A stretch of DNA of 64,000 bases from Diplocarpon mali (taxonomy: Eukaryota; Ascomycota; Leotiomycetes; Helotiales; Drepanopezizaceae): the NCBI GenBank assembly GCA_024741835.1, contig JAENRP010000070.1:62001-126000 (forward strand), read 5' to 3'. Both the position numbers and the translations under genes were made by a program. The notes under the pieces are model-generated. The model was not told the origin of the DNA. It did not search any database and saw only the letters and a program-made list of their open reading frames with translations. This document shows positions 33,139 through 35,561 of this stretch, one piece after another (the stretch's first letter is position 1; the number at the start of each line of letters is the position of its first letter).

Positions 33139-35561
33139 ATGATTCGACGGCATCTTATGCGGGGTAGCCGAGTGCCTCACTCTTCGTTCAGTACTTCGTC
33201 CTGGGTGCGGTCAAATGAGGATACTGTTTCCAATCTGAAGATTGGAGCGCATACGCGAGTTATATTCCAAGGATTTACGGGTAAGTTGCAGTTACGGAGC
33301 TCTCTGGAGGGGCTTGACTGACAATTGATAGGCAAACAAGTATGTTTGTTTACACACCACTCAAGATTCACACTTGCTGAAACGTGACAGGCGACGGCCA
33401 ATGCCAAAGAATCATTAGCATGGGGCACGAAAATAGTAGGGGGCGTAACTCCCGAGAAAACAGGGGAGCATCTTGGACTTCCTGTTCTTCCTACCGTCCG
33501 ACAGGTGTGTCTGCTATACCGTGTTATCCTTTATACCTGGGCTAAGAGACACAGGCAATGGAAAGGCTGAAGCCAGACGCAACCGGTATCTATGTCGCAG
33601 CGCACCAAGCCCCCGCCGCTATCGAAGAGGCAATCGAGGCAGAAGTGCCTCTCATCGTCGCTGTCGCTGAACATATCCCTATCCATGATATGATGAGGGT
33701 ATGTTCTCTTCCTTGACGAAGGGGTGGGAGCTGATGTATTTAGATTCATTCTATGCTGAAGACACAGTCGAGATCTAGACTGGTGGGTGCGAACTCTCCC
33801 GGTATCATTTCGGCCATTGGGAAATGTAGAATTGGTTTTCAGCCGCTGCCCTGCTTTATGCCTGGCCGGGTGAGCATTGTTGCAAAATCCGGAACGCTGA
33901 GTTATGAAGGTAAGTTTCTTGCCGACTACTAGATTGCACTCGTTGACATTCGTAGCGGTTGCGTCGACAACCAGAGCTGGGCTCGGCCAAAGTTTGTGTG
34001 TTGGCATGGGTGGAGATGTCCTTGCAGGCACCAATTTCGTCGACGCTCTGAAGATTTTCGAGCATGATGATGACACGGAGGGTATCATTCTCATCGGTGA
34101 AATTGGGGGAGAAGCGGAGCTGGAAGCTGCTGAGTGGATCAGGGAATACAACAAACGCTCAGCTCATCCAAAGTGAGTCAACACCCCTTGTTTGAGCCAG
34201 AAACCCGATTTATGTCTACAGACCTATCTCGGCACTTATCGGCGGCGTCAATGTCGCGCCAGGGAAGGTCATGGGCCATGCCGGAGCTTTCACATTACCA
34301 GGGGAACCTGATGCACTGACGAAGATCAAGCATCTGGAAGATGCAGGGGTCACGATGGTCAACCATCCAGAGAGGTTTGGTGAGGCTATGAAAAGCTTGC
34401 TGGAAAAACCAGGGCGAACGAGCAGTGGTCCGAGGACATCAGGTTCTTCGCAAAGAAGAAGCATACACACAGCGAGGAGATTCCGGCCAACAGTGAACCC
34501 TGCTGCTTCCTCAACCTATGCTCAACAGAAAAGATTTCTATATATCCGCGAAAATCTCGCCCTCGATCTCCTAAGAGAGAGAGGAATCAACGCTTCCGAG
34601 TACTCTGGCAAAGGTACAAGACACCTCCTGGCAGTCGGCGTAGACCGCACCTCTCTTTCCCCCTGCATCATCGCCTGCCCTTCGACCGACCCTTCAAACC
34701 CATACTCCGAGGCTCACAAATTCCCCTTCGAATACCGCACCGGAGTCTCCTCTTCCCAACTCGACGCCATAGTGTCGCACGTCCAGCTCGGCTCTTCTTC
34801 CAAGGCATCACTTCCGAAGCTGGTCAACGAGCTGGTAAAACTATTCACGGAAAAAGAAGCTATCCTCCTGCAAACCATGTTCGTCGAGCGGCTTGGCGAC
34901 CTCGAAGTCGTCAACGCTCACTTTGACTTTGACGACGCCGCCTTCCGCAGCGCGAAGCGCCAAGGCGATATTCACGCCCTGCGCCGTCTCGAAGGCGAAG
35001 ATTTCTCCTCCGTCGAGGCCGAGAAGGACGGCATCGTGTACATCCAGCTCTCGGGAAACGGCAACATCGGCACCCTCGCCAACGGCGCAGGTTTAGCGAT
35101 GAACACCGTGGATGCGCTCGCTGACGCCGGGGGCCTGGTGGCAAACTTCCTGGATACGGGCGGCAAGGCGACGAGCGAGACGGTGAAGAGGAGCTTCCAG
35201 GTTATCTTGAGGGATGAGAGGGTCAAGGTTGTTTTGGTGAACATCTTTGGGGGCCTGACTTTGGGAGACATGATTGCGGAGGGGATTCTGCTCGCTTTTC
35301 AGGAGCTGGAGATGGTGGTGCCGGTTGTGGTGAGGATTCGCGGGACGAGAGAGGAGGCGGGACAGAGGATGGTGAGTGCCCGCTTCCACTCTCCTCGTTC
35401 ATTTGCGTTTGCATTTGCATTTGCATTTGCATTTATAAGTGGGAGCCGGGGAAGAATGCTAATGGGCGACGTAGATTGCGGAGAGTGGACTGCCGCTCCA
35501 TGCATTCGACGACTTCCACGAGGCGGCGGCGAAAGCAATTGAGCTTGCCAACGAGGCATGA
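33139..35561 (+). CDS. Fused succinyl-CoA ligase alpha-beta-like protein, mitochondrial
   Basis: There are eight exons: 33139-33280, 33332-33339, 33391-33504, 33555-33698, 33744-33909, 33956-34172, 34222-35371 and 35475-35561; the product is 675 residues. Residues 1-30 look like a mitochondrial presequence (Arg/Ser-rich, FSTSSW). The N-terminal half is a complete alpha subunit: CoA-binding GFTGKQATANA, KSGTLSYE, and the phosphohistidine loop GHAGA with His283. The C-terminal half matches the beta subunit from the middle of its ATP-grasp domain to the end, including GNGNIGTLANGAGLAMNTVD and LVNIFGG. The first part of the ATP-grasp fold and the EINPL-type metal/nucleotide motif are not visible. 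Normal enzymes make succinyl-CoA from succinate, CoA and ATP/GTP in the TCA cycle using separate subunits. This one-chain form may use another acid, or be regulatory. Confidence 0.85.
33332..33339 (+). other. 8-nt microexon in the succinyl-CoA ligase fusion gene
   Basis: It is flanked by a 51-bp intron on each side (ending TTGATAG, then starting GTATGTTTG). It supplies the last two bases of Gly48 plus Lys49 and Gln50 of the invariant TGKQ motif. Without it the alpha-subunit CoA-binding loop cannot be read. Confidence 0.8.
35401..35435 (+). repeat. (TTTGCA)n microsatellite in an intron
   Basis: Five to six hexamer units lie within the last intron (35372-35474) of the succinyl-CoA ligase fusion gene. 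No coding effect is expected. Confidence 0.8.

Follow-up and report, generated by a model that had tools for sequence, protein, structure and literature searches.

Succinyl-CoA synthetase (SCS), which acts on coenzyme A (CoA) thioesters, is a textbook enzyme in which a swinging phosphohistidine loop connects two active sites: phosphate passes from a nucleotide to the histidine and then to the acid, from which it is displaced by CoA. The mitochondrial enzyme (SUCLG1 with SUCLA2 or SUCLG2; PDB 1euc, 2fp4, 6g4q) is built from separate alpha and beta gene products. The window analyzed here is a 64,000-nucleotide stretch of the Diplocarpon mali genome (positions 62001-126000 of contig C70 in genome G000, which comprises 49,369,952 bases in 676 contigs). 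Within it, the gene at 33139-35561 on the forward strand was confirmed to be intact and to encode, in one open frame, an entire SCS alpha half followed by a beta half that has been shortened. The alpha half is approximately 48% identical to that of mitochondrial SCS and closely superposable on it, and the ligase domain and the catalytic histidine and glutamate are shared. In contrast, the D. mali protein is one chain, has lost the ATP-grasp lid and the metal-ligand residues, and has GGK where the mitochondrial enzyme has GGG.

Other joined enzymes offer partial parallels. Nmar_0206, a 4-hydroxybutyryl-CoA synthetase (PDB 8wzu), is likewise an ADP-forming enzyme of one chain with phosphohistidine chemistry. 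According to PMC11494057, its domains follow the order 1-2-5-4-3, with an ATP-grasp that includes the lid subdomain 3, whereas the order in the fused fungal protein is 1-2-4(remnant)-5. The same paper describes subdomain 3 (75 residues) as a lid inside subdomain 4 that has an important catalytic part in transferring the phosphoryl group from ATP, and gives the SCS-type route of phosphate from nucleotide to histidine to acid, with CoA displacing it (PMC11494057). The layout of the one-chain ADP-forming acyl-CoA synthetases (1-2-5-4-3 with a full ATP-grasp) was thus absent from the Pfam order of the fused protein. ATP-citrate lyase and citryl-CoA synthetase are related in fold, but their citrate-synthase-like domain was not among the Pfam matches of the D. 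mali protein. Yeast Arg5,6 likewise carries two enzyme parts in one mitochondrial precursor, although the enzymes differ; this polyprotein is cut by the processing peptidase (PMC8835746), and Arg5,6 is not mentioned in the passages of PMC10450427 consulted.

The Fused Gene and Its Family

The coding region, including the stop, consists of eight exons (33139-33280, 33332-33339, 33391-33504, 33555-33698, 33744-33909, 33956-34172, 34222-35371, and 35475-35561) that are separated by GT-AG introns throughout. The spliced product of 675 amino acids, already proposed in an earlier note on this DNA, has no internal stop and matches letter for letter the public protein P0001 of D. mali (a leotiomycete according to the taxonomy), which is named SCS subunit alpha. 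Family counts below refer to 114 aligned fused proteins, D. mali included, that is, the best 120 of 2513 matches to the fused protein minus six that were dropped. A gene-model artefact or pseudogene was ruled out because the frame is identical to the public model and the other 113 proteins (614-732 amino acids in length) are 60-80% identical to it.

Among the matches listed, fused members occurred in four classes of Pezizomycotina (Leotiomycetes, Sordariomycetes, Eurotiomycetes, and Dothideomycetes), with five species checked against the taxonomy, at least one per class. Their database names include hypothetical protein, CoA-ligase, succinyl-CoA synthetase-like protein, and subunit alpha. Literature searches bearing on a fused or aberrant fungal SCS, with 20 or fewer rows listed for each, showed no study of this protein, as judged from titles and the beginnings of abstracts. 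The earlier note had also asked whether ordinary separate genes exist in this genome. Both were found: an ordinary beta on contig C580 as one open frame of 409 amino acids covering positions 12-201 of the 202-position ATP-grasp_2 profile, and an ordinary alpha on C51, seen as exons. A pair on C33 was named ATP-citrate-lyase-like from reading. A search with the beta half returned 1404 matches, the best 120 of which were mostly open reading frames from metagenomes; we read these as exon pieces and not as stand-alone shortened beta subunits.

Loss of the Nucleotide Site

The beta half opens with the first beta helix (residues 366-387, 34526-34591), aligned to SucC MNLHEYQAKQLFAR, and continues with an ATP-grasp remnant (residues 388-520, 34592-34990) that is about 80 residues shorter than SucC between SucC positions of approximately 20 and 107. 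SucC residue 1 aligns to residue 370 of the fused protein and SucC 107-108 to residues 397-398, which accounts for the 80 or so residues fewer in between; a second, smaller deletion lies beyond this rejoining point. The suggestion that the first third of the ATP-grasp fold is missing therefore held for these residues, but the first beta helix is retained. The missing stretch is taken to be the ATP-grasp lid (subdomain 3).

Profile searches gave the same picture. ATP-grasp_2 scored 12.7 bits in P0001 against a cut-off of 29.5 and covered only positions 143-195 of 202, and the best ATP-grasp_2 stretch began at profile position 93 or later in 7/7 family members scanned. The profile was matched at an E-value of 0.001 in 7 of 36 family rows, all 36 of which matched Ligase_CoA (two of these rows being the P0001 protein itself). 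By alignment and Pfam alike, the fused protein lacks a full ATP-grasp that carries the nucleotide and metal ligands.

At the level of single residues, we take K46, 53-55, E99, T102, and E107 of SucC to serve the nucleotide, N199 and D213 the metal, Glu197 site II, and N264 and 321-323 the substrate, and the roles of alpha-subunit residues are presumed likewise. The titles of PDB entries (E197-beta-A, K46-beta-E, and C123-alpha mutants) agree with some of these roles. All 114 fused proteins have a gap at K46, G53, R54, G55, and E99, and E107 is kept as E in only 6. The metal-ligand positions differ as well, at N199 in 110/114 (N in 4) and at D213 in 112/114 (D in 2). In a control set of 120 listed canonical fungal betas, K46 was kept in 119, G53, R54, G55, E107, and N264 in all 120, and Glu197, N199, and D213 in 119; positions 99 and 102 are uninformative, as ordinary fungal beta also departs from E. 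coli there. The place of Glu197 is taken by Gln481 in D. mali (34871-34873), while 91 of the 114 proteins keep E. The loss of the EINPL-type motif that had been noted earlier was thus borne out at N199, D213, and, in D. mali, Glu197.

Mean column entropy in the fused family was 0.70 for alpha, 0.54 for Ligase_CoA, and 0.99 for the junction (521-548), in contrast to 1.65 for the first beta helix, 1.57-2.41 for the ATP-grasp remnant, 2.52 for the linker, and 2.43 for the N-terminus. The ATP-grasp parts of canonical fungal beta showed 0.28-0.57 and their ligase domain 0.33, values that are comparable within each set only, as depths differ and the canonical rows are more alike among themselves. 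This contrast indicates that the nucleotide region is the part of the fold that was released from constraint. Across the aligned sequences, the truncation is conserved, which marks it as a feature of the family and not a local oddity. The earlier note had placed the novelty in the truncation, which is real but not peculiar to this genome, since 114/114 proteins share it and were already in databases.

Conservation of Site I

All parts expected of an SCS alpha subunit were present, namely the CoA-binding domain (residues 38-128, exons 1-4, 33250-33674; PF02629, 65.2 bits), the second domain with the histidine loop (Succ_CoA_lig, residues 176-320, exons 5-7, 33861-34390; PF13607, 41.3 bits), the phosphohistidine, and Glu208. 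The C-terminal Ligase_CoA domain of SCS beta (residues 550-669, exons 7-8, 35078-35540; PF00549) scored 155.1 bits. The NCBIfam cut-offs were not reached for SCS alpha (288.5 and 285.1 bits against 336 and 353.2) or SCS beta (204.0 and 190.4 bits against 370 and 375.55), with scores taken from a 667-amino-acid gene model that is 8 residues short at the start of exon 5. The phosphohistidine His283 (34277-34279; E. coli alpha His246) is H in 113/114 proteins, with one gap (P0042), and Glu240 (34099-34101; Glu208) is E in 114/114. Tyr158 is kept in 112/114, Ser153, Gly154, and Thr155 in 113/114 each, and N264 and GG320-321 in 114/114. Site I is therefore retained in its CoA loop, power-helix motif, Glu208, His246, and acyl-loop glycines. 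The earlier description of an alpha half with His283 and a GKQ loop, of a well-kept ligase domain, and of a fusion that keeps its CoA and phosphohistidine sites next to no normal nucleotide site agrees with the profiles, the alignment, and the structure models. The retention of the CoA and catalytic-histidine end without an ATP grip suggests a CoA chemistry that would proceed without a nucleotide site of its own.

Site I is not wholly unchanged. Lys579 (35165-35167), in LDTGGKAT, is K in 114/114 fused proteins, compared with G in 120/120 listed canonical proteins (LDVGGGAT). Differences between fused and canonical beta at positions where each set is at least 98% uniform include G292K and I322L-V323T (GGG to GGK and GGIV to GGLT). 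These fixed changes near the acyl site suggest that the acyl substrate or the handling of phosphate is unlike that of ordinary SCS.

N-terminus and Linker

The N-terminal residues 1-25 (33139-33213) resemble a presequence, with family means of 5.0 for K+R and 0.2 for D+E and a predicted local distance difference test (pLDDT) value below 50 at residues 1-21. This stretch points to a probable location of the fused protein in mitochondria. A second such segment, residues 326-365 (34406-34525; pLDDT below 50 at 334-366), links the two halves. Its family mean (330-364) was K+R 6.0 and D+E 0.4 per 34.6 residues, against 3.3 and 3.5 per 35 in the alpha core. At 365-372, the fused protein contains QQKR-x-L-x-I, which resembles the place where the presequence of canonical fungal betas ends: canonical beta P0283 has QQKRALSIHEYLSADLLRQYG there, and the fused protein has QQKRFLYIRENLALDLLRERG mid-chain. 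A QQKR-type motif was present in 18 of 20 canonical betas inspected (from the 120), the other two being N-terminally short. The linker pattern R-x-[LIF]-[YHFS]-[IVL] is kept in 109/114 fused proteins, and a second motif, basic-or-Gln-x-x-H-[TSI], in 112/114. By motif and composition, a presequence-like segment thus stands between two enzyme parts, as in Arg5,6. The linker looks like a retained mitochondrial presequence of beta, and it therefore seems that a whole beta precursor was joined behind alpha.

Possible Functions

The intact gene, the family-wide conservation, and the missing nucleotide-site residues lead us to favor, tentatively and at somewhat less than an even chance, an old mitochondria-directed SCS paralogue in which alpha and beta precursors were joined, the lid subdomain was lost, and only the acyl end is still run. 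With the nucleotide site gone, the reversible acyl end of the SCS cycle would still be possible, and the protein would run this end only. Acyl-CoA and phosphate would give acyl phosphate and CoA, and acyl phosphate would react with the histidine to give phosphohistidine and the acid. The phosphoryl group would then be used without a nucleotide site of the protein's own, by going back to a second acid, which amounts to a net exchange of CoA between acids; alternatively, a partner protein could receive it, or water, in which case acyl-CoA would be hydrolyzed in a phosphate-dependent manner.

Several observations weigh against this proposal. The CoA loop T-G-x-Q is not universal (T 107/114, G 107/114, Q 104/114, the rest gaps or changes), the Cys123 position is S, C, A, or T in 43, 37, 31, and 3 proteins, the Lys42 position is K, R, or V in 43, 34, and 34 with three others, and the Gly98 position is His in 114/114. 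The E that most members keep at Glu197 means that the histidine loop may still visit site II. In addition, ATP-grasp_2 is labeled on 10/120 listed rows, and P0119, one of the seven members scanned, narrowly passes the cut-off with 30.4 bits, although over profile positions 95-197 of 202 only.

It is possible, though doubtful, that the chain is a polyprotein cut in mitochondria around residues 365-370 to release an alpha-like and a beta-like subunit, in the manner of yeast Arg5,6 (PMC8835746). This estimate concerns cutting as such, which is compatible with every other functional reading. The beta-like presequence end and the basic linker, disordered in the model, argue for cutting, but the linker motif may be a mere relic of the fusion. 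The combined proposal of a nucleotide-free phosphohistidine enzyme, made as a two-part mitochondrial polyprotein from former SCS halves and exchanging or releasing CoA via acyl phosphate and phosphohistidine, is unlikely to hold in all its parts.

A regulatory pseudoenzyme, which would bind CoA or succinyl-CoA and control ordinary SCS or another matrix enzyme with a non-catalytic histidine, appears rather unlikely. It would fit the absence of nucleotide-site residues in 114/114, the variable Cys123 and Lys42 positions, and the ordinary SCS genes of the same genome. However, His246, Glu208, Tyr158, N264, and GG320-321 are each retained by 112 or more of the 114 proteins, more than CoA binding alone would be expected to require, and so strict a conservation of the catalytic residues speaks against a simple pseudoenzyme. 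The options listed in the earlier note (another nucleotide mode, another acyl-CoA, or a pseudoenzyme) were not separable, except that the last is disfavored on these grounds. A mixed complex, in which ordinary alpha or beta subunits would partner the fused chain and the ATP-grasp of an ordinary beta would phosphorylate the fused chain's histidine loop in trans, is improbable: the alpha and beta parts retain the SCS fold in structure models and Glu197 is kept in 91/114, but a beta ligase domain is already supplied next to the histidine within the fused chain. That a nucleotide is still used, held differently by the ATP-grasp remnant, is very improbable, given an absent lid, metal-ligand positions changed in 110/114 and 112/114, and high entropy in the remnant.

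Origin

A tree built from the ligase block comprised 43 rows (18 of the 120 listed fused proteins, 16 of the 120 listed canonical ones, six of seven bacterial loci, E. coli, and two human proteins) and placed fused and canonical fungal proteins in separate groups, each with 100/99 support, although the program warned that long branches meet. A tree of alpha (25 rows: 17 fused proteins, five of the seven bacterial loci, E. coli, human, and one Diplocarpon ordinary alpha), rooted on bacteria, placed the ordinary alpha nearest the fused clade at a fork of only 89/88. Both trees set the fused proteins, as a single group, apart from their canonical fungal counterparts, but the attachment point disagrees. 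Given the presequence-like linker, the simplest reading is that mitochondrial alpha and beta precursors may have been joined before the four classes split, although long branches and thin sampling limit it.

A recent duplication of the local beta gene was not supported, as fused and canonical groups are separate in the ligase-block tree. A lidless bacterial ancestor was not found in a contig scan, itself weak with only two short motifs searched, in which the lid motif was kept at 7/7 bacterial sucC loci (29 matching stretches). At six of the seven, sucD lies beside sucC, and locus L020 stops within its beta gene. SucC at these loci (L014-L020) reads NGAGLAMN, with N as in the fused fungal family; at this position, E. 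coli has G, and A is present in at least 98% of the 120 ordinary fungal betas.

Genomic Surroundings

A CATTTG repeat (35400-35434, 5.8 copies) lies within the last intron of the fused gene, and a 15-bp tandem repeat, TCCAGCCACACATGT (35680-35780, 6.7 copies), lies directly 3' of it. Further downstream, exons at 36500-38109 (+) resemble an amino-acid transporter by reading. A 713-amino-acid open frame at 27091-29232 (-) resembles, again by reading, the nuclear-pore protein Nup84/Nup107.

Implications

With site I nearly unchanged and the nucleotide lid lost in members from four fungal classes, the family constitutes a natural experiment on that half of SCS alone. The use of succinyl-CoA in filamentous fungi may be misannotated where fused proteins are listed simply as SCS alpha. 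If the combined proposal of a nucleotide-free polyprotein is true, filamentous fungi would be able to use succinyl-CoA, or another acyl-CoA related to it, by a route uncoupled from ATP or GTP.
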